Origin: a virus
Reading direction: 5' to 3' (one strand)
DNA: 64,000 nucleotides
Virus record (IMG/VR): IMGVR_UViG_3300032516_000001
Coordinates: 1 to 64,000 of that record
A model generated the notes under the pieces. That model saw nothing but the letters and a program-made list of their open reading frames with translations, was not told where the DNA came from and did no database searches. Shown here one piece after another: positions 10,624 to 56,528 of the stretch. Numbering within the stretch: position 1 is the stretch's first letter; each line of letters starts with the position of its first letter. Position numbers and translations under genes: made by a program.

Positions 10624-10722
10624 GAGGTAGATATGAGACCGTTCTTCTAAATATTAAGATCCAGATCGCCTCCGGTCTCCTTCGTTTCCGGTTTCAACCC
10701 CGAACGAATGAAGGAGAAAGTC

Positions 10723-11094
10723 ATGAAAGAGGCGATTCTGAAGCTAAAGAACGAAGTCAAGCGATTCACCGCTGAGGGCCGTGCCCTCGGTGGAAAAATT
10801 CGACAGTCCAAAGGACTGGACCGGTATCACCTATGGAACGAGAAACGTTCCCTGGGAGTTGATGCCAGGTGCACCCTTTTGGCATATGCATGCCTTAGGG
10901 GGCGGCTATACACTCAGATCGAGGCTAAGAACCATGAGGGTAATGAGCCGAGCGCCACATATGTTCACGATATTCTTTCACAGGTTCTGGATGATACAAG
11001 GAAAGCCGAGTGGACACCTGAACGGGTGAGAGCCTGGCTCAAAAGAGAAATGCCTCCTGCTGTTCAGGAAACGGCCTCGGAGGTAGCAGCATGA
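10723..11094 (+). CDS. Hypothetical helical protein
   Basis: A 123-residue protein. ATG 10723 is chosen because GAAGGAG lies nine bases upstream; an in-frame ATG at 10708 overlaps that site. The content is helical and basic, with WTPERVRAWLKREMPP near the end. No family is recognised. It overlaps the Pth2-like gene by ATGA. Confidence 0.75.
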   Translation: MKEAILKLKNEVKRFTAEGRALGGKIRQSKGLDRYHLWNEKRSLGVDARCTLLAYACLRGRLYTQIEAKNHEGNEPSATYVHDILSQVLDDTRKAEWTPERVRAWLKREMPPAVQETASEVAA

Positions 11095-11435
11095 CACACA
11101 TCACCAAGAGGCTCGTAAAAGTATGTATAATCACCAGATCGAATTTGACCGATGCAGATCAGGCTGTACAGGCATGTCACGTAGCGATGCAGTTTATGAT
11201 GGATTATCCAGAATCGGCCAGATCATGGCATGCGCAATCCAATACCCTAGTCTTACTTACGGTCGAAAACGAACAGGGTCTCCAGCGTATTATTGATCGA
11301 GCGTTTGATCTCAATGTTCGAACGGCTGCCTTTCGTGAACCAGACCTTAATAACGCTCTTACGGCCATTGCTCTTGAGCCTAGCGACAAAAATCAACGGA
11401 TTTGTAAGAACCTCCCACTTGCCCTTGGTGGCTGA
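11091..11435 (+). CDS. Peptidyl-tRNA hydrolase Pth2-like protein
   Basis: A 114-residue protein with the Pth2 fold pattern: a first strand KVCIITRSNLT, then QAVQACHVAMQF near residue 25, NTLVLLTVENEQ, and REPDLNNALTAIALEP near 85. Pth2 enzymes release peptides from drop-off peptidyl-tRNA, which would suit a phage carrying a tRNA and a ribosomal stalk protein. The usual Pth2 N-terminal Lys in G-K-x2-A-Q-x-x-H is altered here (DADQAVQACH), so activity is uncertain. Confidence 0.75.
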   Translation: MTHITKRLVKVCIITRSNLTDADQAVQACHVAMQFMMDYPESARSWHAQSNTLVLLTVENEQGLQRIIDRAFDLNVRTAAFREPDLNNALTAIALEPSDKNQRICKNLPLALGG

Positions 11436-11451
11436 AAATTGGAAACGTAAA

Positions 11452-12531
11452 ATGGAAAAGTTAGAAATTTTTATTCCGGAGAATGCTTGCACCGAAGAGA
11501 CCGAATGTTCTTGTCGAGGAGAGCATTTATCCCCGGTCAAAGGATATAAGCTAGTCGTTACACCATTTGCGACTAAGAAAGGATGTTGGGATTATACGCA
11601 AGGGTTGGTATATTCACCAGACGGAAAGTTAATAGCTGAAATCCAACGTAACTATAGTTCATTCCCATTTGCTTTCATTGAAAATCATCCGAATGGAAAC
11701 GTCTACTTAGTCGCAGGCGCCGACTATCAAGGCCAGACAGTGATTGAGCTCAATACCGGGAAACGGCGTGATTATTTACCAGAAGACGCTGCAAAAGGAT
11801 GCGGCTTTTGTTGTGCCGACTATCAATTTGATGTAGCAAGCCAGATATTAGTGGTTGATGGCTGCATTTGGGCGTGTCCTTACGAGTATCGATTCTATGA
11901 TTTTAGCGATCCTATGAACGGATGGCTAGAAATCGTAAGAATCGGATCGGATGGGGAAGAAGGCATGATCGATCAAGATGAGAAATGGCCAACGTTCGAG
12001 CCCGATGGAACGATTAAGTGTTATCAGACAGAATCGCCAGATGAAGTTGGTATTCCGTCTGTCTATCGTGTGATCGCAGCGATTTTAACACTTAGACGAG
12101 ATGGACACAAATTAATTCTAGTAGATGAGTGGGTTTCAGATAAAGAGAAAATAGTACGAGCTGAGAGGGAGGAAGCCCGTAAGAAGCACGAGCAATGGGT
12201 AAAAGATTTCCGCGCTTCCGATCCTCTTTATTTGGCTCACAAAGAATTGTTGAAAGACCCCTTCTGGAAACCGGAGGAAAATGAATGGGGTGGAATTACG
12301 CATGAAGGTTGGTGTCCAGATTTTAAAGGTAAAGAGCAACGCTGGGGTAGAAGAATTCTGGAAAGAAAAGATGAAAACCCGTATACGATTAATCTTGATT
12401 GGGCGGTTGTCTCAGGTCCTATCAAATTGACTATTTATAAGGATGGAAACACCACCGAATATAAATTCTTCGAACATTCGATCGAAGGAATGAATAAAGC
12501 TTTTGCCTATGCTAAATCAATCGCAGAATGA
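11452..12531 (+). CDS. Conserved hypothetical protein
   Basis: A 359-residue protein. The frame is open from inside the Pth2-like gene, but ATG 11452, just after that gene's stop, is the likely start. Beta-rich motifs include LVYSPDGKLIAEIQRN, NGNVYLVAGADYQGQT, GFCCADYQFD and WACPYEYRFYDFSDPM. I recall similar bacterial proteins of unknown function with a propeller-like look. The C-terminal third is helical and charged. Confidence 0.75.
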   Translation: MEKLEIFIPENACTEETECSCRGEHLSPVKGYKLVVTPFATKKGCWDYTQGLVYSPDGKLIAEIQRNYSSFPFAFIENHPNGNVYLVAGADYQGQTVIELNTGKRRDYLPEDAAKGCGFCCADYQFDVASQILVVDGCIWACPYEYRFYDFSDPMNGWLEIVRIGSDGEEGMIDQDEKWPTFEPDGTIKCYQTESPDEVGIPSVYRVIAAILTLRRDGHKLILVDEWVSDKEKIVRAEREEARKKHEQWVKDFRASDPLYLAHKELLKDPFWKPEENEWGGITHEGWCPDFKGKEQRWGRRILERKDENPYTINLDWAVVSGPIKLTIYKDGNTTEYKFFEHSIEGMNKAFAYAKSIAE

Positions 12532-12539
12532 CTCGCGTT

Positions 12540-12546
12540 GTACAGT
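12540..12546 (+). promoter_or_regulatory. GTACAGT box
   Basis: GTACAGT ends ten bases before the ATG at 12557; no Shine-Dalgarno sequence is present. It is another instance of the recurring short-leader box. Confidence 0.4.
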
Positions 12547-12556
12547 CCCGTAACGC

Positions 12557-13186
12557 ATGGGGTTTTCTATATCACCTACTAAGCCTCGTTGGCGACCAAT
12601 AAACCCGAGGGTCAAATTAGCGTATGCATTACGTGAACATTCGATTATCACAAATGAAAACGGCCGTTCCTATATAGATTGCAAACCCGTTCTACTGAGA
12701 CCGTATGGGCATATATATATTGGTCATTTATTAATCGAAGAAATAGTCAAGAATTTCAAACCAATAACAGCGGTAGCCGGAGTTGGGTTTGATGGTTATG
12801 CGATGGCTAGCGCTGTATCATGCATGAGTTTAGCGTCAAATTGCAATGCTATGGATGCGCTGTATGTAAATAGGAAAGATAGAATCATCGAAGGAAATCC
12901 GGACTTAGATGCAAAAGTGATAATATTGGGAGGATCAATTAATGACATACTTATTGATGATATTGAGTTAATTTGTAATTTTGGATATGAAGTTGTTGGT
13001 GTGATAACTGTAATGGGGGATAGTATAATCGAAGCAGAAGGATTACCAGTTCGTTCTTTATTCACTCAAGAATCAATAAACGAAGAAATTCGTGATTGGG
13101 AAGCCGGAATCGATTATCCGGAAAACAAAGTAGAGAAGAAAAATGATCACACTCGAGCAAGCAAAAGTCACAAAAAACGCTCTTAA
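12557..13186 (+). CDS. Orotate-phosphoribosyltransferase-like, degenerate PRPP site
   Basis: A 209-residue protein with the type I PRTase layout: TAVAGVGFDGYAMASAVS (first beta-alpha unit), ALYVNRKDR (flexible-loop Arg/Lys), then a strand, VIILGGSINDILIDDIELI, where PyrE has its acidic D-D PRPP loop, and GYEVVGVITVMGD. In the usual motif two acidic residues precede T-T-G-x-S; here LGGS takes their place, so PRPP binding is doubtful. It may bind a nucleotide as a sensor, or be an inactive relative. The last 44 bases overlap the next gene. Confidence 0.65.
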   Translation: MGFSISPTKPRWRPINPRVKLAYALREHSIITNENGRSYIDCKPVLLRPYGHIYIGHLLIEEIVKNFKPITAVAGVGFDGYAMASAVSCMSLASNCNAMDALYVNRKDRIIEGNPDLDAKVIILGGSINDILIDDIELICNFGYEVVGVITVMGDSIIEAEGLPVRSLFTQESINEEIRDWEAGIDYPENKVEKKNDHTRASKSHKKRS

Positions 13187-13385
13187 GTTGACCTTAGGAA
13201 AACCGAACTGGCTTCGTGGTATCGGAATCAGCGCTGATGATCAAGGGTACTTTGTCAAAGTAAATGTTTCCGCATTAACCCCCGATGTAACGAGTCAAAT
13301 AGAAGCGGCTTTGTCTGAAAACTTGGATAAAGTTCGAGTAAAAATGGAAGCAGTCGGCGACATCGTGGCTCTGGAGAAAAAATGA
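13143..13385 (+). CDS. Small beta-alpha-beta domain protein
   Basis: An 80-residue protein: a helix, GIGISADDQGYFVKVNVSA, a helix, and VRVKMEAVGDIVAL. This G-I-G-I...Y-x-V-K-V-N-V...V-x-V-x-x-V-G layout is one I recall from short domains in bacterial proteins, sometimes near proteases, but no function follows. It overlaps both neighbours. Confidence 0.65.
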   Translation: MITLEQAKVTKNALKLTLGKPNWLRGIGISADDQGYFVKVNVSALTPDVTSQIEAALSENLDKVRVKMEAVGDIVALEKK

Positions 13386-13834
13386 CGTTTAATCGTGAAG
13401 ATTGGAATAGACGCAAAGCTGGGTGGGAAGAAGATACCCTAGCTTATACAGCCGGATTTTTAGATGGCGAAGGATGTTTTTGGGTGGGTAGAGGATGGAA
13501 AATTGGCGTTTCTTGTGCAAATACTGATTTATCTGTAATTAGATGGTTACAAAATAACTTTGGAGGTTCCATTTTCAAACCACGACCACTGCGCAAACCT
13601 AACCATCGACCGGTCTGGACATGGCAAGTAGTTGGACACAGTGCTAGAGAACTTTGTGCTTATGTGACACCCTATTTAAGAGAGAAAGCTCCGCAGGCAT
13701 TGTTATTGGTTTCTCTAAGCCAACTCATGGGGTTGCCTTTAAAGGGACGTTATATTGATCCTGAAGTGATTGAAGAACGAGATCGTCTTACTGAGATTTT
13801 GAAAGGGATGAAACATCGTGTCTCGAGGCCATGA
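13382..13834 (+). CDS. LAGLIDADG homing endonuclease
   Basis: A 150-residue single-motif LAGLIDADG protein: AYTAGFLDGEGCFWV at residues 15-29, then WKIGVSCANTDLSVIRWLQNNFGG and a Trp/His strand typical of the family. Such enzymes dimerise and cut long DNA sites, spreading themselves. It sits free-standing between the 80-residue gene and dCMP deaminase, overlapping both, so it is a neat insertion between two metabolic genes. Confidence 0.85.
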   Translation: MTFNREDWNRRKAGWEEDTLAYTAGFLDGEGCFWVGRGWKIGVSCANTDLSVIRWLQNNFGGSIFKPRPLRKPNHRPVWTWQVVGHSARELCAYVTPYLREKAPQALLLVSLSQLMGLPLKGRYIDPEVIEERDRLTEILKGMKHRVSRP

Positions 13835-14258
13835 ATGGTGGAAAAATTGGTTTTTGGGCATGGCACAATATGTGTCTACGGCCTCAAAAGATCCGTCGAC
13901 GAAGGTAGGCTGCGTAGTAGTCGGTCCAGATCGCGAGGTGCGTTCCACTGGCTATAATGGCTTCCCCAGGGGCATAACTGACACGGACGAAAGATTACAA
14001 GATAGACAAATAAAATATCCGCTTGTGGTACACGCTGAAATGAACGCAGTTCTCCATGCAGCGAGAATAGGTCTTGCACTCAAAGGCTGTACAGCTTATT
14101 CAACATGGCCGCCTTGCACTAGATGTGCTGTGTCTTTGATTCAAGCAGGCATTGTGCGGGTAATATGGCCTCAAGTGACTATCCCAGAAAGATGGGCGGA
14201 GGACTTCAGTACAGCTTGTTCAATTTTACAGGAAGCAAGAATAATAATTCCATCTTGA
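13818..14258 (+). CDS. Deoxycytidylate (dCMP) deaminase
   Basis: A 146-residue zinc enzyme. HAEMNAVLHA (zinc His and proton-shuttle Glu, ~residues 75-79) and PPCTRCAVSLIQAGI (two zinc Cys, ~98-101) are both intact; GYNGFPRGITD near 45 is the typical dCMP-binding turn. It converts dCMP to dUMP and so feeds thymidylate synthesis during phage replication. Start ATG 13818 lies within the end of the LAGLIDADG gene. Confidence 0.92.
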   Translation: MSRGHEWWKNWFLGMAQYVSTASKDPSTKVGCVVVGPDREVRSTGYNGFPRGITDTDERLQDRQIKYPLVVHAEMNAVLHAARIGLALKGCTAYSTWPPCTRCAVSLIQAGIVRVIWPQVTIPERWAEDFSTACSILQEARIIIPS

Positions 14259-14271
14259 TGTAAGCTTTAGC

Positions 14272-14688
14272 ATGGGGATCTACATAAGTAGTGATCTTCT
14301 TCCTGGGGCAGCTCCCGTCTATGATAGAGGGTCAAAATTTCAGCCGGTTTTTAATTGGGATACCGGATGTTGGGTAGATCCAGGAAATGAATATAGGACT
14401 TATGCTCCAAGCATATACAGAGATACTTGGAAAAGTCTAGCAGCAGCCGTAGCTGACGGATATCTCGAGTTGATTAAGAAATATCGTATTGGAGAAATGA
14501 TGATTAGTTATTGTGAAACAAAAACCGGATATCGAGCGGCTTTAACGTTCTTTCCAAAGGGAGGTCAATTAACATTGACTGAGATTCGTAAAATATCCAA
14601 AGAGGATCTCGGCAAAGTTCCCCATTGGTTCCCAGTTCGTAATCTTAATAAGGGTACTGCTTTAGCACTTGTAGTTATGAATTCATGA
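14272..14688 (+). CDS. Hypothetical protein
   Basis: A 138-residue protein without recognised motif, mixed alpha/beta, with no membrane segment. It lies 13 bases after dCMP deaminase. Its end overlaps the convergent small Cys-rich gene by six bases. Confidence 0.7.
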   Translation: MGIYISSDLLPGAAPVYDRGSKFQPVFNWDTGCWVDPGNEYRTYAPSIYRDTWKSLAAAVADGYLELIKKYRIGEMMISYCETKTGYRAALTFFPKGGQLTLTEIRKISKEDLGKVPHWFPVRNLNKGTALALVVMNS

Positions 14689-14899: not shown

Positions 14900-15244
14900 A
14901 TGGATACATCACTTGATACAACGATTTTAATGATATGCAGAAATTTATATGCTTTTTCTTCCGAAACCAGAGTTAATTTAATATCGGAAATATTAGATGA
15001 CAGTCAAAGCCCGGATGGTGTTAGGTATATTTGTTCGGTAGTTATAGTAACAGGTTCATCTTTTTCCGATATTCTATGTGAACAGAATACTTTAAGAAAG
15101 ATTGATGGATGGACTGTGCAGACAATGGAATGTATGACTAGTATCATCTCGCCTACTGACGCTAAAAAGTTGATGCTAGATCGACTACTGTTTAAGTGTA
15201 AGAGTGCTTTAGAAGTACCCATAAAAGGAGTGATGGATAGTTAA
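14900..15244 (+). CDS. Hypothetical protein, first of a tandem pair
   Basis: A 114-residue protein. Its C-terminus (TDAKKLMLDRLLFKCKSALE, then VPIKGVM) matches the next gene's (SDAKKKLLDDLLRRCQEALE, then APVTGVM), while the N-terminal halves have diverged. The two genes arose by tandem duplication. No family is recognised. Confidence 0.75.
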   Translation: MDTSLDTTILMICRNLYAFSSETRVNLISEILDDSQSPDGVRYICSVVIVTGSSFSDILCEQNTLRKIDGWTVQTMECMTSIISPTDAKKLMLDRLLFKCKSALEVPIKGVMDS

Positions 15245-15245
15245 C

Positions 15246-15566
15246 ATGGATGATATGTCGATGGATGTGGCAATTCTCAAGATGAGCAATATTCTATTTG
15301 TTCATTCGCCAAACACTGGAATTAGTATTAATTTAACAACAGAAACACGTGATGTTCGAGAACCACAAAGTAATAGTATTCAAGACATAATAAGACAGGT
15401 ATATGTTTGTTCAATAATATTAACGATCCATGGAACAACATCATGTATGATGGCGTATGCATCTAGTTGGGTATTATCCGATGCTAAGAAAAAACTATTA
15501 GATGACCTACTACGAAGATGTCAAGAAGCTTTAGAAGCGCCAGTAACCGGAGTGATGAGTATTTAG
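15246..15566 (+). CDS. Hypothetical protein, second of a tandem pair
   Basis: A 106-residue paralogue of the preceding gene, one base after its stop. Conservation is strongest in the last 30 residues, which form an amphipathic helix followed by a short GVM tail, suggesting that this end does the shared work (for example binding one partner). Confidence 0.75.
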   Translation: MDDMSMDVAILKMSNILFVHSPNTGISINLTTETRDVREPQSNSIQDIIRQVYVCSIILTIHGTTSCMMAYASSWVLSDAKKKLLDDLLRRCQEALEAPVTGVMSI

Positions 15567-15603: not shown

Positions 15604-15679
15604 GTCTCGTTAGCTCAATGGTCCAGAGCAGGAGGCTTTAAACCTCCGTATAGGGGTTCAAGTCCTCTACGAGACGCCA
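15604..15679 (+). tRNA. tRNA with anticodon UUA (ochre suppressor)
   Basis: The gene folds as a complete class I cloverleaf: acceptor GTCTCGT/ACGAGAC, D stem GCTC/GAGC, anticodon stem GGAGG/CCTCC with loop CTTTAAA, four-base variable loop GTAT, T stem AGGGG/CCTCT with loop TTCAAGT, discriminator G and encoded CCA. With a seven-base loop the anticodon is TTA, which pairs with the stop codon UAA and by U34 wobble with UAG. The GUC...GAC-G acceptor end, missing base 47 and A46 resemble bacterial tRNA-Glu (anticodon UUC), one base away; the charging identity is inference. Confidence 0.88.
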
Positions 15680-15715: not shown

Positions 15716-16549
15716 ATGATCCATTTGAATAGTTTCGGTCCTGAAGTTGAGACGTGGCAAAATTTCTTAGTGGGTCAGGGGTTGTTCCATGGCCACGTCG
15801 GCGGACTATTCGATAAAGCTACACAAAATGCGACCATTTCATTTCAGAGATTGCAAAATGTTCTTACAGATGGAAAAGTAGGTGATGAAACATATGGTGT
15901 TGCCAAGAGACTAGGGTTTATTACTGAAGCAAATGATGACGATAGCAGAACGGGACCGAATTGGCCACCGAGACCAGAAAGTCTGAGTCCGTTAACCGAC
16001 GATAATGCACGCCAAGCAATATTTGGAAAATTCCAATATGAACCAGCTGGAATTAAGAATGATCCTGAAGCAATAGTTATTACCGATACATGGGAAAGAG
16101 ATAATATTATATCAATCGCAATCCCACAATTGGGGGGTATTAGAGGTTCTGGGAGTGCAAAAATACAATTTCATAAGAAAGCAGTAGATCAACTTCTCGC
16201 GTTATTCAAAGCCTGGGAAGATGCAGATTTAATACCACTAATTTTGAGCTGGGGAGGTTCATATGCCCCAAGGTTTATTCGTGGGTCTAGAGTTAGACTC
16301 AGTAACCACGCTTATGCAAGTGCATTTGATATTAATGTGGCCTGGAATTATATGGGAACACGACCCGCATTGGTCGGATGTCAAGGATCAGTTAGGGAAC
16401 TAGTGCCAATAGCCAATGAACTTGGCTTCTTTTGGGGCGGGCATTATGGTTTCAATAAGACGGGCCAACAAACAGGAGGTAGGCCCGATGGTATGCACTT
16501 CGAAATTGCAAAAATTATAGATGTCAGCGATCCCTATCTATTTAGATGA
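15716..16549 (+). CDS. Endolysin: PG-binding domain plus M15 peptidase
   Basis: A 277-residue lysis enzyme. Residues 1-70 form a peptidoglycan-binding repeat (VETWQNFLVGQGL, DGKVGDETYGVAKRLGF). The C-terminal 130 residues show the VanY/M15 zinc-peptidase pattern: SNHAYASAFDIN (zinc His and Asp), ELGFFWGGHY, and RPDGMHFEI (catalytic Glu region and last zinc His). It would cleave peptide stems of the wall. There is no signal peptide, so a holin is expected. TTGACT and GTACTGT lie just upstream, with the latter five bases before the ATG. Confidence 0.88.
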   Translation: MIHLNSFGPEVETWQNFLVGQGLFHGHVGGLFDKATQNATISFQRLQNVLTDGKVGDETYGVAKRLGFITEANDDDSRTGPNWPPRPESLSPLTDDNARQAIFGKFQYEPAGIKNDPEAIVITDTWERDNIISIAIPQLGGIRGSGSAKIQFHKKAVDQLLALFKAWEDADLIPLILSWGGSYAPRFIRGSRVRLSNHAYASAFDINVAWNYMGTRPALVGCQGSVRELVPIANELGFFWGGHYGFNKTGQQTGGRPDGMHFEIAKIIDVSDPYLFR

Positions 16550-29514: not shown

Positions 29515-30465
29515 GTGAATAAATACTGGACGATCTATTGTCATACGCACATTGAATCGGGACGTCGTTACATAGGTTTGACTGCACAGACGTGGCAGAA
29601 GCGCTGGAAAAACCACGTCTGTGCAGCTAATTCCGCTAGGGGTGGGCGTTGGCATTTTCCTAACGCCATTCGTAAATATGGAAAAGATGCATTTAGTCAT
29701 GAAATACTAGAAGTTTGTACAATATTGGAAAAAGCAAACGCAGCTGAAATCAAGTGGATTGAATTTTATAAGACTCGGGATCCTCAATTTGGATTTAACT
29801 TAGCAAAAGGTGGGGATCACATACCGTCCGAAATTCGGAAGAATCCTTGGAATGATCCTGAATTTCGAGCTAGAGCCTGTTTAGCGGCCAAAGCTAAGTG
29901 GCAGGATCCTAAATATCGTGCAGCTAACTTGGCCATTAGTAGAGCTAGGCTAGCAAAAGCGACTAAGATTGCGTCGTTGAATAAGGTACAAAGTAGACCG
30001 GAGGTAAAACAGCAATTATCCGAGATTATGAAACGTGTGGCTGCCACGCCAGAAGGCCACGCTCAACGAATCGCAGCGGCGCACCCTGGCAAAATTTTAA
30101 CTGCTGAACATCGCGCAAAAATATCAGCTAATGATGCTTCAAAAAGACCAGAAGTAGCAGCAAAGATATCTATCAGTAGTAAAGCGGCGTGGTCTGATTC
30201 TGAAAAACGCAAGCGTATGACGTTAGCATAGGTTGGTAAGAAACTAAGTCCTGAAACTATAGCCAAAATGATTGCTGCAAATACCGGACGTAAATTATCT
30301 GATGAAGCAAAACTTAAGATTTCCGAGGCGTTGACAGGGAGACCGAGACAAACGCATTGTCAAAGAGGGCATGCCATGGAAGGAAATAACATTCTCATTA
30401 CAGGTAATAGACACAGGTGTAGAATGTGCAGGAACATGAGACAAAGACATAGACGAATTAAATAA
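29515..30465 (+). pseudogene. GIY-YIG homing endonuclease interrupted by amber codon
   Basis: The first 238 residues (GTG start) match the 27727 gene closely: TIYCHTHIESGRRYIGLTA, HFPNAIRKYGKDAF, and NUMOD3-like repeats. A single TAG at 30229-30231 stops it, but the same frame continues for 77 residues (GKKLSPETIAKMIAANTGRK, then a CQRGHAMEG...CRMCRNM zinc finger) that match the intact C-terminus of the sister gene at 44038. So the amber removes only the DNA-binding finger. It is either a fresh null mutation or a codon read by the UUA-anticodon tRNA. Confidence 0.85.
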
Positions 30466-35996: not shown

Positions 35997-36590
35997 TTAA
36001 GAGTTTAGTTTTTGGAATTTCCTCCTGATGAGGGCAGACACCATAGTGGATTCCTTATTTATTTCTTCTCGAACTTCTCGTATCATATTATTATACCAGG
36101 TTTCAATCGATTTTCGGAAAGGCCAACACCAAAAATAAGATGACGATGTGAACTGTCTTATGATATGCTCTTTGTATTCATTATTCACATATTTATCGCC
36201 CAATAATTCAAGTGCGGCTTTTGTCCCTTCTCTATATCCGGCCTTTTCGAATTTCATTCTGAAATATGCTAATCCAATCGGGAAAAATACAAATAGGTAT
36301 AAAAATATATAAAGAGGGAAAGTATATTTTTTGAACTGTCTTATGTGAACAACTTCGTGTCTAATAGTTATGATTCTTGAGTTATCTGATTTAGTTTCCC
36401 ACGAATCCGGAACACATATCTTCGATCCTATTGTCGTAGTATAATTATCCATGAACTCTTTTATTTGTCCGAAGCTGATGATTTTAAGTATGACGTCAAT
36501 AACCTTCATCAGCCAACTATCACGTTTCCTTATGACAGCGAAAGATGGAATCTCTTCTCGGACCTTTTCGATGTATTCATCGTAATTCAT
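35997..36590 (-). CDS. Membrane-associated HEXXH metalloprotease-like protein
   Basis: 197 residues from ATG 36590. IRHEVVHIRQ gives an HEXXH zinc site (His78, Glu79, His82), directly followed by a hydrophobic stretch (FPLYIFLYLFVFFPIGLAYF, ~91-110) and then E-K-A-GY, where a third ligand Glu would be expected. A second weak hydrophobic segment is near 30-40. This resembles small membrane-facing metallopeptidases of unknown target. An upstream in-frame ATG at 36608 is an alternative start. Confidence 0.65.
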   Translation of the reverse strand: MNYDEYIEKVREEIPSFAVIRKRDSWLMKVIDVILKIISFGQIKEFMDNYTTTIGSKICVPDSWETKSDNSRIITIRHEVVHIRQFKKYTFPLYIFLYLFVFFPIGLAYFRMKFEKAGYREGTKAALELLGDKYVNNEYKEHIIRQFTSSSYFWCWPFRKSIETWYNNMIREVREEINKESTMVSALIRRKFQKLNS

Positions 36591-36621
36591 ATAATAATGC
36601 AGCATTAATATTGTAATCAAT

Positions 36622-36936
36622 ATGCAACCGATTGATTGGAATTTGGTACCTGACGATGGGACGATGATTCTATTGACTATTCCTGACTTATTAGATGATA
36701 TTTCATTACAAATGGCAGATTTCAAAGATGACTATGCACTGGTTTTTAAGAAGACAGGCAGCTATTTGGGACTAACTTTATCTCGGGGGGTCAGACTGGG
36801 CAAAGGGCCGGCTAGAATGATTAATGGAATCTGGTATATAGACGAAGATCCGTATTTGCAGAAAGTATATACCGACATAGACCTCGATCCAGAACTCGTT
36901 GATCTAAAGCTAATTAAATTAAATGAAATGAAATGA
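36622..36936 (+). CDS. Hypothetical acidic protein
   Basis: A 104-residue protein, divergent from the HEXXH gene. It is acidic at both ends, with a central GLTLSRGVRLGKGP. No family is recognised. Confidence 0.65.
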   Translation: MQPIDWNLVPDDGTMILLTIPDLLDDISLQMADFKDDYALVFKKTGSYLGLTLSRGVRLGKGPARMINGIWYIDEDPYLQKVYTDIDLDPELVDLKLIKLNEMK

Positions 36937-37009
36937 AGTTATGATGTCTTAATATATCAAGAGTTTAATTAAAAAGCGTGATGTTAAACTACACGAGGTG
37001 AACTCTGTC

Positions 37010-37030
37010 ATGAATGACATCGGAGGGTGA
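37010..37030 (+). promoter_or_regulatory. Six-codon upstream ORF ahead of speD-like gene
   Basis: ATG at 37010 opens the hexapeptide MNDIGG and stops with TGA one base before the speD-like ATG. GAGGTGA lies nine bases upstream, and the codons for Gly-Gly form the GGAGGGTGA ribosome site of the next gene. Translation of this mini-ORF would therefore affect initiation on the enzyme gene. Confidence 0.45.
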
Positions 37031-37031
37031 A

Positions 37032-37415
37032 ATGGCTGATATTGATGGACTCCACTTATTAGTTGATGGACAAGTTGAAGATACTTCAGTCTTTGCCCAA
37101 GACAATATAGACCAGTTACTAAGACGTTTAGTCATCGACTTAGATATGGAGTTACTTCTTGAACCTCAGTTTAAAGAAGTGGCATTGAATCCGGCAGAAC
37201 TTGAGAAGGATGGGTTCTCCGATGATGGTGGCCTTTCAGCATTTTGCATGATTTCAACTAGCCACATATCAATTCATGTATGGCCATTACGAGCTGTATT
37301 TATGGCCGATATTTTTAGCTGCAAGAAGTTCGATGCTCCAAAGGCTCAAAGAACCGTCATAGAGTTCCTGCACCCAACTAGCCTAAAAATTCAGTCTATA
37401 TCTCGTTCCCCGTAA
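37032..37415 (+). CDS. speD: S-adenosylmethionine decarboxylase (SpeD)-like protein
   Basis: A 127-residue protein the size of a bacterial SpeD monomer. GGLSAFCMISTSHISIHVWP (66-85) aligns with the self-cleavage region and ADIFSC (92-97) supplies the catalytic Cys. Ser77, which becomes the pyruvoyl group, is present, and so is His82, but the Glu normally before the Ser is Thr76. SpeD makes decarboxylated AdoMet for spermidine synthesis. With the altered cleavage site, activity cannot be assumed. Start 37032 is chosen for its GGAGGGTGA site. Confidence 0.8.
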   Translation: MADIDGLHLLVDGQVEDTSVFAQDNIDQLLRRLVIDLDMELLLEPQFKEVALNPAELEKDGFSDDGGLSAFCMISTSHISIHVWPLRAVFMADIFSCKKFDAPKAQRTVIEFLHPTSLKIQSISRSP

Positions 37416-37444
37416 ATCTATCCATTGTTCACGTATTCCGGGGT

Positions 37445-38155
37445 ATGAGAACCCCGGAACCAACGGAATCGATCCTACAACCGAGTCACCCGTCGTACGG
37501 ATGTACTCAGGCTTGGTTCGTATTCGGTGTCTTGAACCCGGCAGGGGATATCACCAGGGTCTTGATCGTCGAAGCCAAGAACATCTGGGCTGTTCAAACG
37601 CTGGAGCGAGTGTCCAACAAGGATAACAGGGTCAATGACCACTGCGAACTCATGACCGTCGGTAGGCAGTGCGCCAGCCTTGGCACTCGCTCAGATAGAG
37701 CAGTCGAAGTGTCATATGTCGACTTCCTCATCGATATCGTCGAACCTCACCGGCTTGTCGAAGATCATTACATCGCAACGACATTCGATCGGTCCCTGAC
37801 TGATGCCGATCGAGCATATGCAGCTAAAAAACTGGAAGCATTGGAGAAGCAATCCCGGGTACCGGAGCAGGTACCGGAGCAATCTATCCCTGACCTGACC
37901 GAGGCTGAGTTGGAAGCGCTCTACGATGAAGATGCCAAGCAGCAGGCCGAGCAGTCAGCCGCACCGGTAATGAATAAGTTCCTCAGTGATCATTATTCGA
38001 TTCAGACGTCGTCTACTCATCATAGAGTGACTGCGGCTCTGCTCGACTTGGGCTTCAAGAAGCAGCAAATCGGCCAAGTCATGGGTGAAATTGATGCTAG
38101 CGGAACAGTAGAGAATACAGTCAAATTGGCACTACAGCAACTCAACGTGAGGTAG
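37445..38155 (+). CDS. Protein with C-terminal RuvA-domain-III-like module
   Basis: A 236-residue protein. The N-terminal ~115 residues are an unrecognised alpha/beta domain (GCTQAWFVFGVLNPAGDI, RVLIVEAKNIWAVQTL). A charged linker (~120-180) with VPEQVPEQ follows. The last ~42 residues (TAALLDLGFKKQQIGQVM, then TVENTVKLALQQL) match, helix by helix, RuvA domain III, a UBA-like bundle that docks on RuvB (LGYKPQEASRMV and ETLIREALRA in E. coli, from memory). With RuvB at 21117 this could be a RuvB adaptor. A generic UBA-like domain is the alternative. Confidence 0.7.
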   Translation: MRTPEPTESILQPSHPSYGCTQAWFVFGVLNPAGDITRVLIVEAKNIWAVQTLERVSNKDNRVNDHCELMTVGRQCASLGTRSDRAVEVSYVDFLIDIVEPHRLVEDHYIATTFDRSLTDADRAYAAKKLEALEKQSRVPEQVPEQSIPDLTEAELEALYDEDAKQQAEQSAAPVMNKFLSDHYSIQTSSTHHRVTAALLDLGFKKQQIGQVMGEIDASGTVENTVKLALQQLNVR

Positions 38156-38157
38156 AT

Positions 38158-38502
38158 ATGGTTTGGGTATGCTCAGCATGTGGACTCGAGAATTCCATCG
38201 ACACGTTCCGGTGTAAGGAATGTGGAATGGAATACGGAAAGCATCAAAATAGTAGAATTAGCATCAAACTCCAATCCATGCGCAAGGTTGGCCAACAAGA
38301 AATCCACTATGGCATGCCAGAAGTTCATTACGATATGCCAGAGCCAATTGATATTTCCAAAATCAATTGGGACCGTCCAGTCGAACCGGCTATTGGACAG
38401 GTATCCCCAATTAAAATGACTTTATTTCCGCTTCCGATCAAAATTGCATCATTGGTTGCCTTTGCGTGTATGATTTTTAGTATCTTATTGATGCTAGTGT
38501 AG
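38158..38502 (+). CDS. Zinc-ribbon, tail-anchored membrane protein
   Basis: A 114-residue protein: a RanBP2-type ribbon at the N-terminus (WVCSACGLENS, RCKECGMEYG), a linker with HYGMPEVHYDMPEP, and a single C-terminal membrane helix (IASLVAFACMIFSILLMLV). The ribbon would face the cytoplasm. Function unknown. Confidence 0.75.
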   Translation: MVWVCSACGLENSIDTFRCKECGMEYGKHQNSRISIKLQSMRKVGQQEIHYGMPEVHYDMPEPIDISKINWDRPVEPAIGQVSPIKMTLFPLPIKIASLVAFACMIFSILLMLV

Positions 38503-38503
38503 T

Positions 38504-38992
38504 ATGACGACCGTAATCATAGGATATGGCCCTCTTTCGGAGGTACACCCGTATATTCCAGAATTTATAATTCTGCAAACCGACGATAATATCATTAAAC
38601 TTGGACAAGATCAACAGAGAGTCAATTTAACTCCGAAGACCCTGGATGACTTGATAGCAAGCAAACAAGTGAAGTTATTTGACGGAAGTGCAGAATATTA
38701 CTCAGATCAATGGATAGCTATTGAATGCGATGCACCAATTATACTGGCTAGATTCCCACTAGCTGAGAATCAAAAATGGGCAGTCGGGCGGGCTTCTAAG
38801 TTAATTGAAGAATCTTTTGCATTTAGCCACAAGGAGCCACTAAAAGCCATATCAGTCCTACAGATTGCCGCTGGACTGTGTAAGATAGAATTGTCTAAAT
38901 TAGTTCAAGCTTTAGAAGCTAAACGTAAGGATCCCTCGGAAAAATTAGAAACCATCTTGCTAAGAATCAAATCAGAACTATCGAAGAACTAG
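38504..38992 (+). CDS. Hypothetical protein
   Basis: A 162-residue protein starting one base after the previous stop. Its first half is beta-rich, its second half helical (SVLQIAAGLCKIELSKLVQAL). No family is recognised. It is the last intact AT-rich gene before the GC-rich cassette. Confidence 0.7.
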   Translation: MTTVIIGYGPLSEVHPYIPEFIILQTDDNIIKLGQDQQRVNLTPKTLDDLIASKQVKLFDGSAEYYSDQWIAIECDAPIILARFPLAENQKWAVGRASKLIEESFAFSHKEPLKAISVLQIAAGLCKIELSKLVQALEAKRKDPSEKLETILLRIKSELSKN

Positions 38993-39000
38993 AGGGTGAA

Positions 39001-39060
39001 ATGAAGGTTCACGAACTCGTATCTCAATTGTCAAAATTTGATTCTTCGGTGAAGCGGTGA
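39001..39060 (+). pseudogene. Truncated MKVxELVxxLxxFD gene, left edge of cassette
   Basis: A frame starts MKVHELVSQLSKFDSSVKR and ends at TGA after 19 residues. The opening M-K-V-x-E-L-(I/V)-x-x-L-x-x-(F)-D is, from memory, the start of a common 60-100 residue phage protein, so this looks like a 5' fragment cut off where GC content jumps. GAGGGTGA precedes the ATG. Confidence 0.5.
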
Positions 39061-52184: not shown

Positions 52185-54992
52185 TCAAAGCCCCAGTAGA
52201 TCTACCAATACTCTAAAACGATCAGGGTCCACCATCACTCCTTCAGATTCTGATAAAATAATCTTACCATCATGCCCCAGAATCCTTAAAGCATGAGATC
52301 CTTCAGCTAGAATACAGATAGCATACAATTTCTTCATCGAATTTTCGGTCAAAACGGTTCTGATAGTCCATCTTAATACAGAACCACCACCGTTTCCATT
52401 GCCGGGAACGGGCTTTACTTCTTGAGCTTGAACCGCGGATTCAGTCGGTATCTTTTCTTCCGATTTTGGTTCAGATTCCGATACAGGTTCAGGTTTCGGG
52501 GCTAATTCTATAGGTCCGATATCGATATCCAAATCACCATTAACTGGAAGTATGGCCTCCGTTGATTCTAACTCGACATTGGTGTCTAATTTAGACTCGG
52601 GATCAAGTTCAGATTGAGGCTCCGGTTCAGGTGTCGGTGTAACCTCTGTCTGAGGATTTGATGACTTAGGTCCCCCATCAATCTTTCGCCATATATATGC
52701 CTGCAAGAAATCGGGAATTTTCTGGTACACTCTTCCATTATCAAAATATTGGTTGCCTTTCAGCTTACCAGCATAATTTCCTTTTTCGTCTAGGTCTTTA
52801 GGTCTGGGAACAGCTCCGTCGACCATATGGAAGAAATCAAACCTAGCACGCCAGTGAACATCAACTCCGGGCTCTGTATCGAGCGGCACCACCCATTGAC
52901 GCCCATGAGCTTTATGCATCGCCCCTGGGAGAACCATCCACTCATGGAGTTTCGGAACGATTTCCATCAAGAATTGGGGTCTAATTTCATAGACAACTTC
53001 ATCGTGTACCGTTAGCACGTAGCGAACTCTGTCCTCCCATTTATTCAATCGTATTTGTTTATCCACATAACACATTGCTAATTTCAAGACATCTGCTGAT
53101 GTGGATTGAATAGTGTAATTGATAGCACAACGTTCAGCCTTTGCCCTAACGGCTTTAATCGGTGAATCAATCGTCGGAATCGGGATTCTACGACCAAATG
53201 CCGTATAAATGCACTTATGTTTCTTGGTAAATTGCTTTTGATAATCAACATATCCCATCAAAACTGGGACATCATTTCGCAAGTTATTCATGTGACGTTG
53301 AGCATCCTCGATTGAACACCCAACATTGCGCATTATGGCGCCAGCTCCACCACCATATATGAATGCGAAATTGCAGCGCTTGCCGCGATTTCGTTCATCT
53401 TTACTAATATTTTTCTTCCCGAATAGTGTACGCGATGTGATTGCGTGTACGTCTCCATCACCATGTAAGAAGGATTCCGTCCAAACCGGATCCCCGGACA
53501 TATTAGTTACTACACGTAATTCCTCACCAGCATAATCAATTTTGACTAGGATATACCCAGGTCTAGCCGATATGCAACTCCGTATCTGCTTAAATAATTC
53601 TGGTTTATCATCATCAGAATCGCGAGGGATCCCTTGAAAATTGACTCCTGAAAATCCATCTTTTATATCACCAGCAGTAGCCGAAAGACGAGTTGTGTCA
53701 GTACCGAGCTGATTGAAATTCGGTCTAACATCGCCATATATATCATGTGATTTGAGGAATTTCTCGATGAATGATCCTCCCATCTTTTCATAATGACGGT
53801 ATTCGAGGAGAAATTCGAATATGCTAGCAGTCTTGGATCTATGCGTTATCTTAGTCTTCTCTCCATAGTCTCTATGGAGAGTTTTGACCATTTCGTCTTT
53901 TAAGGAGTACTGCTTCGGTTTTCCGTCTTCACCGATTTCAACTTCATGCGGCTCATCGTCGCCATCTGAATCATCATTATTGTGGCTATAATAATCCCCA
54001 CCAGGGTTTAGCATTTCTTTGGTGGGTTTTAATTTCATACCTTCCGGATCTGTATGGAAGGCTTTCGATAGTTGTGTTACAGAACCAACATTCAATGTCA
54101 ACCACTTACCGGTATTACCAGTTCTTGATTCAATAAATCGCCGGATCAAATCGCCGGTCTCTTGCATGGCCTCCTTACATTCAGCATGAAGTTGATTGAC
54201 TCTATCAACATCTATATGAACGCGATTACGCTCCATTTTCCGGAGCACATTACAGAAGGCTCTTTCCAAATCATAGATTGTTGGATCGAATCCTTGTAAT
54301 TTATCTTTCAGAGTATGATATAATTTATAAGTAAAAATGCCATCAGAACAGCCGTACTCGAGGCCTTCCTTAGGATGCAATAATGCAAAGTTGTATCTCT
54401 GCTTTGCTCGTTTTAATTGTTCTTTTTTCTCTGCTGTAAACAACTCATCAAGTTCCACCATGTCGATACCATAGTGAATCTTGGTGAGAGGCTTCAATCC
54501 CGCCGGGGATGTCTTAATTGGGTTAATGATTTTAGCTAAGAAATATGTATCTTCATATTGATCTATCTTCCAATATTCTTTACCGGTGACTGGATATAAG
54601 AATTCACAATCGAATTTTGAGTTATGGAAGATGGCTCTTGCATTACTATTTATTAATTTGGCTAATAGCTCCCAAGCTTCATCCCATGGTAAATTCCCAG
54701 AATCTTCCGGCTCATGAGAGAGTGGAACATAATACCCATGCTGTCCATCAAATGAAATGCATACGCCGACTATTCTATCTATGGTTCTAATTCCAAATTT
54801 GGTTTTCTTTCCATCTTCAAAATGGCTATCTGAATAAATTCTATTGTCGACACCAGTGGTTTCTGTATCGATCGAGTACAACCCTCTTTTTATACAGGTA
54901 TCTACGAGTTGACCAAGTTGATCGAGAGTCTGTACTAAATGGAAGCTATAATATTGAAACCAGTCGCGCTGTATAGTTATTCTATCATCCAT
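52185..54992 (-). CDS. Family A DNA polymerase with proofreading and C-terminal extension
   Basis: About 935 residues from MDDRITIQRD. Exonuclease motifs: YSIDTETTG (~38), FHNSKFDCEFL (~125), YGCSDGIFTYKLY (~215). Polymerase motifs: A, KIDYAGEELRVV; B, KRCNFAFIYGGG; C, VLTVHDEVVYE. So both activities look intact. After ~750 a Pro/Glu-rich linker of ~90 residues leads to a separate C-terminal ~70-residue domain (SVLRWTIRTVLTENSMKKLY, ending VLVDLLGL), not part of standard PolA. It is the replicative polymerase. GTACAAT lies 21 bases before the ATG. Confidence 0.93.
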   Translation of the reverse strand: MDDRITIQRDWFQYYSFHLVQTLDQLGQLVDTCIKRGLYSIDTETTGVDNRIYSDSHFEDGKKTKFGIRTIDRIVGVCISFDGQHGYYVPLSHEPEDSGNLPWDEAWELLAKLINSNARAIFHNSKFDCEFLYPVTGKEYWKIDQYEDTYFLAKIINPIKTSPAGLKPLTKIHYGIDMVELDELFTAEKKEQLKRAKQRYNFALLHPKEGLEYGCSDGIFTYKLYHTLKDKLQGFDPTIYDLERAFCNVLRKMERNRVHIDVDRVNQLHAECKEAMQETGDLIRRFIESRTGNTGKWLTLNVGSVTQLSKAFHTDPEGMKLKPTKEMLNPGGDYYSHNNDDSDGDDEPHEVEIGEDGKPKQYSLKDEMVKTLHRDYGEKTKITHRSKTASIFEFLLEYRHYEKMGGSFIEKFLKSHDIYGDVRPNFNQLGTDTTRLSATAGDIKDGFSGVNFQGIPRDSDDDKPELFKQIRSCISARPGYILVKIDYAGEELRVVTNMSGDPVWTESFLHGDGDVHAITSRTLFGKKNISKDERNRGKRCNFAFIYGGGAGAIMRNVGCSIEDAQRHMNNLRNDVPVLMGYVDYQKQFTKKHKCIYTAFGRRIPIPTIDSPIKAVRAKAERCAINYTIQSTSADVLKLAMCYVDKQIRLNKWEDRVRYVLTVHDEVVYEIRPQFLMEIVPKLHEWMVLPGAMHKAHGRQWVVPLDTEPGVDVHWRARFDFFHMVDGAVPRPKDLDEKGNYAGKLKGNQYFDNGRVYQKIPDFLQAYIWRKIDGGPKSSNPQTEVTPTPEPEPQSELDPESKLDTNVELESTEAILPVNGDLDIDIGPIELAPKPEPVSESEPKSEEKIPTESAVQAQEVKPVPGNGNGGGSVLRWTIRTVLTENSMKKLYAICILAEGSHALRILGHDGKIILSESEGVMVDPDRFRVLVDLLGL

Positions 54993-55013
54993 TTGTTGAA
55001 GGAGCACTAGAAA

Positions 55014-56528
55014 TTGTACACTCAGCAAAATCCGAAAATTGTTGTTAAATGCACAGAATGTTTAAAAGAGTTACAAATATCAAAAATTGCCTTGGCTAGA
55101 GCATTAAAGAAAAGAGGTAAATATGTATGTTTACAATGCGTTATGTCATCAAATGAGGTTAGACATAAAATAAAGTTATTTAATAAAAATATGAGTAAAG
55201 AAACTAGAAATAAAATTCGTGAATCTTTAAAAAAGAAATATGCTGATGCTAGTGATGCTGAAATTGAAGTAATAAGACAAAAGTCACTTCAGATTTGGGA
55301 AGATTCGGAATTCACACGTAAACAGAAGTCAATGAGGGATAGCTCAGAATTTCGTTCTAAATTAAGTGAATCTGTTAAATTAGCATTCTCCAAATGCGAT
55401 TGGCCTGCGAGACAACCAGTCGTAGCTAAAAAGCTATGGCAAGATAAAGATTATAGGCGTAAACAGTTATTGTTTAAAGCATCTGATTCATATAGAGAGA
55501 AACAAAGTCGTATAACAAAAGCAAAATGGGGCACAGTCGAGTATAGAAAATCTCAGTCAAAAGGATTATCGGAAGCTTTTAAAAAAGGAGTTGATTCATA
55601 TATTGAGCGTGCTGTTCATAATATCTTGACTGATATGAATATGTCGTACATTCGGCATCATGTTATTGGCTGGTATGAATTTGATGTTTACATACCAGAC
55701 CATAAATTATTGATCGAATGCCAGGGAGAATATTGGCACTCGCTAGACAAACATAAAGCAAACGATATTAGAAAATATAATTATGTCAATGATTATTTCC
55801 CGGATCATAAAATTCTTTATCTATATGAGAGAGATTTTCTAAATCCACAAATCGTAAAACAAAAACTCATAAGTTCTTTAGTAGACAATTCTAATCGATT
55901 AATTGAATTGTCCCAGACATGTTTTCAACTTAATAATATTGTGACAAAAGTTCTGGCTACCAAACTAAAACAGAAGCATTCACATTATTCAGAACCAGAA
56001 GAATTCATGCAAGCATACCATTATGCTGGATACGGGAGAACTGCTAAGAAACTATACGGAGCATACTTGGATGAGAAGTTAATTGCGGTATGCAAATTTG
56101 CAGGCGTTATCAGGAAAGAGGTTGCAACTTCGATGAATTTTGAACCAAATCAAGTGTTAGAACTTGATCGTTTCTGCATCCACCCGCAGTACCATAAGAA
56201 AAATTTTGGTTCTTGGTTCATATCACGTTGTTCAAAATTATTATTAAATGAATGTACGAAAATCGACTGTCTGGTGTCTTTTGCTGATACTACATTTGGC
56301 CACCATGGAACAATATACTCAGCCGCTGGGTGGAAAATGATCCACACAGTTAAACCGGATTACCATTATGTAAGTGAGGATGGATTCGTATTACATAAGA
56401 AGACTTTATATAATCATGCCCGGAGAATGGGAAAGACAGAATCAAAATATGCAAATGAATTTAGATACACGAAAATATTCGGAAAAGAAAAGATAAAATT
56501 CGCATTATATCGAAGATGTATAGTCTAA
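55014..56528 (+). CDS. Vsr-like homing endonuclease with GNAT-like C-terminus
   Basis: A 504-residue protein with a TTG start. Residues 10-45 are a zinc finger (CTECLKEL ... CLQC); 60-190 are NUMOD3-like repeats (SEFRSKLSESVK, KDYRRKQLL); ~205-285 the Vsr-type nuclease (HVIGWYEFDVYIPDHKLLIE, CQGEYWHSLDKH, then ILYLYERDF); the last ~190 a GNAT/Mom-like domain (YGAYLDEKLIAVCKF; ELDRFCIHPQYHKKNFGSWF) shared with the 32569 gene. It is divergent from and abutting the DNA polymerase gene. Confidence 0.82.
   Translation: MYTQQNPKIVVKCTECLKELQISKIALARALKKRGKYVCLQCVMSSNEVRHKIKLFNKNMSKETRNKIRESLKKKYADASDAEIEVIRQKSLQIWEDSEFTRKQKSMRDSSEFRSKLSESVKLAFSKCDWPARQPVVAKKLWQDKDYRRKQLLFKASDSYREKQSRITKAKWGTVEYRKSQSKGLSEAFKKGVDSYIERAVHNILTDMNMSYIRHHVIGWYEFDVYIPDHKLLIECQGEYWHSLDKHKANDIRKYNYVNDYFPDHKILYLYERDFLNPQIVKQKLISSLVDNSNRLIELSQTCFQLNNIVTKVLATKLKQKHSHYSEPEEFMQAYHYAGYGRTAKKLYGAYLDEKLIAVCKFAGVIRKEVATSMNFEPNQVLELDRFCIHPQYHKKNFGSWFISRCSKLLLNECTKIDCLVSFADTTFGHHGTIYSAAGWKMIHTVKPDYHYVSEDGFVLHKKTLYNHARRMGKTESKYANEFRYTKIFGKEKIKFALYRRCIV

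Follow-up and report, generated by a model that had tools for sequence, protein, structure and literature searches.

Identification of a UUA tRNA and a divergent PTH2 gene in a phage record

We analysed a 64,000-base stretch of viral DNA (hereafter the window), comprising bases 1-64000 of the 241,648-base linear IMG/VR virus record IMGVR_UViG_3300032516_000001 (G000 below), with a focus on a transfer RNA (tRNA) gene whose anticodon is complementary to a stop codon, and on a nearby gene whose predicted product is a divergent member of the PTH2 peptidyl-tRNA hydrolases:

15604-15679, plus strand: tRNA gene with anticodon UUA, encoded CCA and discriminator G73 (ARAGORN, Rfam RF00005, cloverleaf read by hand)
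11091-11435, plus strand: divergent PTH2-family peptidyl-tRNA hydrolase gene (family B), 114 amino acids, no in-frame stop (Pfam, AlphaFold2, Foldseek, family profile)

ARAGORN reports a single tRNA in the window, at 15604-15679 on the plus strand, typed as tRNA-Stop with anticodon TTA, and the same bases match Rfam RF00005 at 64 bits (cut-off 29; E-value 1.4e-11) with an alignment that spans the full cloverleaf. Read by hand, the acceptor stem GTCTCGT/ACGAGAC is followed by G73 and the encoded CCA, the D stem is GCTC/GAGC, the variable region has four bases and the T arm is AGGGG-TTCAAGT-CCTCT. The anticodon stem is GGAGG/CCTCC and its loop CTTTAAA; because a perfect five-base-pair stem surrounds a seven-base loop, the register of the anticodon is fixed as UUA. 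Hence all three approaches bear out the first-pass annotation of this DNA, made from its letters alone, which had described a complete cloverleaf with this loop and anticodon and had called for a tRNAscan-type check. With its complete cloverleaf and a stop-reading anticodon in a seven-base loop, the molecule belongs with the nonsense-suppressor tRNAs, and is predicted to read UAA and, by wobble, also UAG. The same annotation had noted a resemblance to tRNA-Glu: G73 and the absence of base 47 are as it stated, but an amino-acid assignment from them does not stand, and we dropped identification of the amino acid by tRNA similarity altogether, because the suppressors of the group described below differ in their acceptor stems, in the discriminator base (A, G, T or C) and in the variable arm (short or long). 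A BLAST search of phage and plasmid records with the tRNA gave no match. It is the sole tRNA of G000, which is probably a fragment: three relatives have 34-42 Rfam tRNA matches each, so its solitary state may reflect the missing part of the genome.

On the same strand, starting 4.2 kb before the tRNA, is the PTH2 gene, which the first-pass annotation of the tRNA did not mention. Its product scores 31.6 bits against Pfam PTH2 (PF01981; gathering cut-off 23), and an AlphaFold2 model computed with 46 relatives reached a predicted local distance difference test (pLDDT) score of 94.5 and a predicted template-modelling score (pTM) of 0.87. The top Foldseek matches of this model are archaeal and human Pth2 enzymes (3erj at a template-modelling score of 0.81, then 2zv3, 1wn2, 1q7s and 1xty), and a profile of the family finds the same structures (2zv3 with E-value 4e-10). 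A score above the gathering cut-off together with the PTH2 fold places the protein in the PTH2 family. Over 47 family-B members the residues R16, Q27, H30, E83, P84, D85 and T91 are invariant, and the canonical PTH2 motifs GKxAAQ and AGRTQ are not conserved in the alignments. Family B shares the PTH2 fold and PF01981 with the canonical phage PTH2 (family A; the jumbo-phage PTH2 in PMC7824862), but differs from it in a much lower PF01981 score (at most 38 bits, against 107-116 bits), in the motifs R-x-DL-x-PGYQ and EPD-x-x-N-x-x-TA-x-A, and in being tied to suppressor tRNAs.

Genetic code of the phage

The 252 open reading frames (ORFs) of the whole record end in TAA 104 times, in TGA 93 times and in TAG 55 times, and reading through any of the three stops gives no rise in coding density. 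The record uses the standard code with all three stops as terminators; stop usage and coding density rule out genome-wide recoding of TAG, TAA or TGA. That TAA is an ordinary terminator and that no simple code replacement has occurred, as first noted for the window, therefore holds for all 241,648 bases. The hallmarks of a stop-recoded phage, namely in-frame TAA or TAG in many conserved genes and denser coding under an altered code, are not seen. Alignment with three relatives yielded one clear codon of this kind in a G000 gene, a TAG at 30229, which splits a GIY-YIG homing endonuclease gene (29515-30465) and stands where the 99.3% identical G001 has CAG. The selfish gene may recently have acquired a nonsense mutation, or this may be a first suppressed codon; since selfish genes decay, it is weak evidence for readthrough. 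When all proteins of the relatives G001, G002 and G003 were aligned to G000, with G003 alone contributing about 49,000 aligned residues, no convincing in-frame TAA or TAG came to light beyond this endonuclease. Hence, the earlier picture of an ochre-suppressor tRNA in a standard-code phage persists, but the accompanying suggestion that the phage's own genes might depend on readthrough is left with a single weak case.

Suppressor tRNAs and PTH2 genes in related phages

Relatives of the phage were found via the DNA polymerase A of the window (52185-55028). Besides G001, a 36 kb fragment with 99% protein-level identity, they include the larger G002 (376,674 bases; 61%), G003 (426,960 bases; 58%) and G011 (393,220 bases), which are the three tRNA-rich genomes mentioned above, and each of which carries a nonsense suppressor away from its main tRNA array. 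In G002 this is a UUA tRNA with a long variable arm (336141-336231), situated far from the array and 0.29 kb downstream of a PTH2 gene. The suppressor of G003 has the anticodon UCA (80541-80615) and lies 3.3 kb downstream of a PTH2 gene that came up when the relatives were screened for broken genes: it has an in-frame TGA (...IIVRTDL-TGA-MGKIIAQS...) in a frame that is otherwise intact. G011 likewise has a PTH2 gene with an in-frame TGA, two UCA tRNAs (65695, 66310) and then a transfer-messenger RNA (tmRNA) gene (67020). UUA tRNAs are also present in the smaller relatives G013 and G015, and two contigs found only via a DNA pattern of the UUA tRNA, G004 and G010, encode PTH2 beside a UUA tRNA, with the gene in G010 starting ATG-AAG-TAA-GTA-AAA. 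Further tmRNA genes occur within a few kb of the PTH2/suppressor pair in three loci (L227, L261 and L287); that of G000 itself is at 82453-82791 on the minus strand (L002:18453-18791) and encodes the tag ANDNAVRVAA.

A survey of family-B PTH2 loci

Family-B loci were collected from IMG/VR by the PTH2 protein alone, not conditioned on tRNAs or stops (best 80 of 139 confirmed), and after addition of named loci and removal of copies more than 95% identical this gave 74 non-redundant loci. A suppressor tRNA with the anticodon CUA, UUA or UCA is present within the flank available for each locus (up to 6 kb) in 65 of the 74, and is the nearest tRNA in 61; the median distance to PTH2 is 345 nucleotides, with 52 of the 65 at 1 kb or less. 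Moreover, in 55 of the 74 loci the PTH2 gene has a leader consisting of ATG, at most a few codons and a stop that lies a short way ahead of the first beta strand (54 TAG, one TAA). This stop falls at codon 2-5, and 53 of the 55 genes offer no other start codon between it and that strand (mycobacteriophage I3 is counted among the 55 and not among the 53). Of 656 further ORFs in these loci, 18 (2.7%) have an ATG-x-TAG leader, seven of them without a start codon in the next ten codons; binomial p-values for PTH2 against these ORFs are extremely small, with relatedness ignored. Wherever both the leader stop and the linked anticodon are known, the two match (TAG with CUA in 48, TAA with UUA in G010 and G006, the TAA-bearing copy of the latter also having a frameshift), and the stops inside the PTH2 genes of G003 and G011 likewise pair TGA with UCA. 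The TAG-leader phages are not TAG-recoded: their median gain in coding density from TAG readthrough is 0.04, unlike in recoded Lak, where the density goes from 0.57 to 0.88. A further search with a second family-B alignment (A2) added one new record only, and a scan of genome contigs for family-B PTH2 gave three weak matches in metagenome-assembled genomes. The loci thus display directly the pairing, its common strand and its closeness and, in most members, a PTH2 stop that the linked tRNA could read; the pairing recurs across very different phages.

Named phages display the same arrangement. The PTH2 gene of the huge-phage record LR756500 starts ATG-AAG-TAG with a CUA tRNA 0.8 kb downstream, and that of LR756501, likewise from a huge phage, starts ATG-TCG-TAG with a CUA tRNA 2.1 kb downstream; in 24 kb stretches of these two and of LR756504, PTH2 is essentially the sole gene with an in-frame TAG (excluding short or overlapping ORFs, gene-end stretches and a few small ORFs). 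In mycobacteriophages I3 and ScoobyDoobyDoo a gene annotated as "peptidyl tRNA hydrolase" is immediately followed by an annotated tRNA-Pyl(cta), and ARAGORN finds the same in Myrna. Their leaders are ambiguous (ATG-TAG-GTG in I3, similar TAG-GTG in the other two), and because a GTG start comes after the TAG we do not rest the argument on them. Lak-B4 has a UUA tRNA about 0.6 kb upstream of a divergent family-B PTH2. As a control, 11 canonical (family-A) PTH2 loci were examined, and a suppressor within 6 kb was seen in just one, the huge-phage record LR745208. That suppressor is a UUA tRNA situated 90 bp downstream of a family-B PTH2 of this phage (7225-7705; locus L322), the canonical gene being about 1 kb upstream. 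Myrna too has both kinds of PTH2, with the CUA neighbour only at the family-B copy.

A proposed two-gene module and its possible logic

The interpretation that we favour, with rather better than even confidence, is that the tRNA of the window is a working ochre suppressor and constitutes one half of a conserved two-gene phage module, with the divergent PTH2 (11091-11435) as the other. In the window the two genes lie 4.2 kb apart on the same strand, within the roughly 6 kb that delimits the module, and the PTH2 frame is uninterrupted. The window would therefore be an ochre member of the module with an ungated PTH2, as in most UUA members (G002, G004, L223, L243, Lak-B4 and LR745208 are the others without a stop), and it speaks for the pairing and not for the gate. 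That the tRNA is charged, that it suppresses stops and that the enzyme serves the module we infer.

In gated members, full-length PTH2 would be made only when the suppressor has been transcribed, processed and charged, and the enzyme would hence appear in step with suppressor activity. Suppression of natural stops would let ribosomes run past gene ends, giving rise to stalled complexes and to dropped-off peptidyl-tRNA, including that of the suppressor itself. By hydrolysing such peptidyl-tRNA, PTH2 might act as the clean-up enzyme of the suppressor. A companion rescue system might be the phage tmRNA, which G000 encodes and which several relatives have close to the module. Candidate benefits of suppression to the phage are a disturbance of termination in the host, timing, and use at particular genes. 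For G000 and most UUA members the tRNA and PTH2 would be coupled by function and neighbourhood only. Which amino acid is inserted seems to be of no importance, because the suppressor bodies vary and the suppressed codon sits in a variable leader. We regard as evenly balanced the more specific proposal of a self-referential switch, in which a PTH2-like enzyme lies behind a stop that only the neighbouring suppressor opens and is made in proportion to suppressor activity, with the window representing an ungated branch, and which would supply a general reason why standard-code phages, as well as Lak phages with their UUA tRNA, keep suppressors.

Several points weigh against the two-gene module. 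The partners in G000 are 4.2 kb apart, a loose pairing, so the tighter spacing in the relatives carries the argument; its PTH2 has no internal stop, and nothing in the window directly shows suppression. A TAA is present in only two of nine UUA-linked PTH2 genes, and six TAG-leader loci lack a suppressor in the stretch examined; LR756504, whose PTH2 starts ATG-ACA-TAG, has no tRNA within 12 kb. XacN1 (AP018399) has two CUA tRNAs but lacks a family-B PTH2 in their vicinity. Genes of G000 that end in TAA or TAG are not followed by an excess of tandem stops, although strong suppression might favour these. Finally, the canonical active-site motifs (GKxAAQ, D-AGRTQ) are incomplete in family B, and catalysis by the predicted hydrolase is not assured.

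Among other explanations, the suppressor might act mainly on the host, disturbing termination or defence proteins, with PTH2 shielding the phage from the side effects. Retention of suppressors over deep divergence without recoding would agree with this, as would an antidote role for PTH2, and this explanation has also been put forward for zeta crAss phages that carry unused suppressors (PMC12386605). It overlaps with the module rather than excluding it, but taken alone it leaves a PTH2 hidden behind a matching stop unexplained, and we consider it unlikely. We hold it quite unlikely that the tRNA serves partial recoding, with in-frame UAA or UAG in late genes or in genes outside the window, as in code-15 phages. 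The split endonuclease hints at this, and with relatives of 377-427 kb, part of the genome may be missing and could hold recoded genes; yet the proteins of G001, G002 and G003 revealed no second case, code 11 fits throughout, a survey of 10,754 jumbo-phage genomes reported no TAA-recoded genome (PMC13037316), and Lak phages have a universal UUA suppressor without TAA recoding (PMC8346664).

It is also conceivable that the tRNA is a functionless chance anticodon mutant or a relic of a tRNA array. The relatives do have 34-42 tRNAs, tRNA bodies turn over fast and G000 offers no target gene, but the intact cloverleaf with its encoded CCA and the recurrence of suppressors outside the arrays and next to family-B PTH2 in widely differing phages render this very improbable. 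Phage tRNAs can evade tRNA-targeting defences, and a Lys-like CTTTNAA loop would suit a decoy or replacement for a tRNA cut by a host anticodon nuclease; such a non-decoding role makes no prediction of a match between anticodon and stop in a linked gene, and we give it hardly any credence.

Neighbouring genes and other observations

The start of pth2 overlaps the preceding gene:

10708-11094, plus strand: 128-amino-acid ORF that directly precedes pth2 and shares an ATGA overlap with its start (ORF list)

Because the ATG of pth2 thus overlaps the TGA of this ORF, pth2 is probably translated by coupling with it. By a post hoc count, the plus-strand ORFs around pth2 (10708-14688) mostly end in TGA, which the UUA tRNA could not read; genome-wide, TGA accounts for about 36%. 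Shortly before the tRNA, ORFs 14900-15244 and 15246-15566 are of similar length with similar C-termini (EVPIKGVMDS, EAPVTGVMSI), and look like a tandem duplication of a protein without assigned function. An endolysin-like gene (15716-16549; PG_binding_1 and Peptidase_M15_4) starts about 37 bases past the tRNA; we rejected it as a conserved neighbour, as it has no relatives near other suppressors and its one homologue, in G002, is about 230 kb from the suppressor there. Elsewhere in G000, a 3,960-residue ORF (199684-211566, minus strand) with many collagen-like Gly-x-y repeats is also present in G003. G002 (109608-109683, 130588-131579) and G003 (109783-113049) encode tRNAs with leucine anticodons and short class-I variable arms (75-77 nucleotides), unlike normal tRNA-Leu, for which misassignment or unusual charging is possible. 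In XacN1, a family-B PTH2 predicted beside the CUA tRNAs (ORF088 and a 2.5 kb unannotated gap) proved wrong on inspection: the tRNAs (36047-36205) are followed by a small ORF and by 2.5 kb without annotated genes (36560-39053), and no PTH2 is found there.

Relation to known systems and significance

In bacteria, prfB, the gene for release factor 2 (RF2), uses an early in-frame stop as a sensor and is autoregulated by frameshifting in response to release factor. The gated PTH2 genes resemble prfB: both are genes for translation factors that an in-frame stop interrupts early on, and their expression would depend on the decoding of that stop. They differ in that prfB relies on a frameshift and senses release factor, whereas here a linked tRNA would read the stop. 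The TAG- or TGA-recoded Lak and crAss-like phages (code 15, code 4) likewise combine a nonsense-decoding phage tRNA with a standard-code host, but in the present group the phage genome keeps the standard code and a single PTH2 gene is the conserved partner. Lak phages have a CUA tRNA for recoding plus a universal UUA tRNA; the latter was found in 51 of 51 genomes, no TAA recoding was seen and its presence was left unexplained (PMC8346664). Suppressors without visible recoding have also been described in zeta crAss-like phages (PMC12386605) and in XacN1 and Atu_ph07 (PMC5852040, PMC6102473), where the authors found no target gene. The present group differs from these "unused" suppressors by a linked target or partner, which XacN1 lacks near its CUA tRNAs. 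No account of the suppressor/PTH2 pairing turned up in the open-licence papers searched.

Suppressors in phages that do not recode have repeatedly been reported without a target, and a partner gene with a matching stop offers a directly testable circuit. The module would tie phage suppressors to the recycling of peptidyl-tRNA and to the rescue of ribosomes, and implies that the family-B PTH2 genes of gated phages may be annotated from the wrong start. If true, the switch would be a general answer to the question of why suppressors are retained in standard-code phages, and to that of the UUA tRNA of Lak phages.
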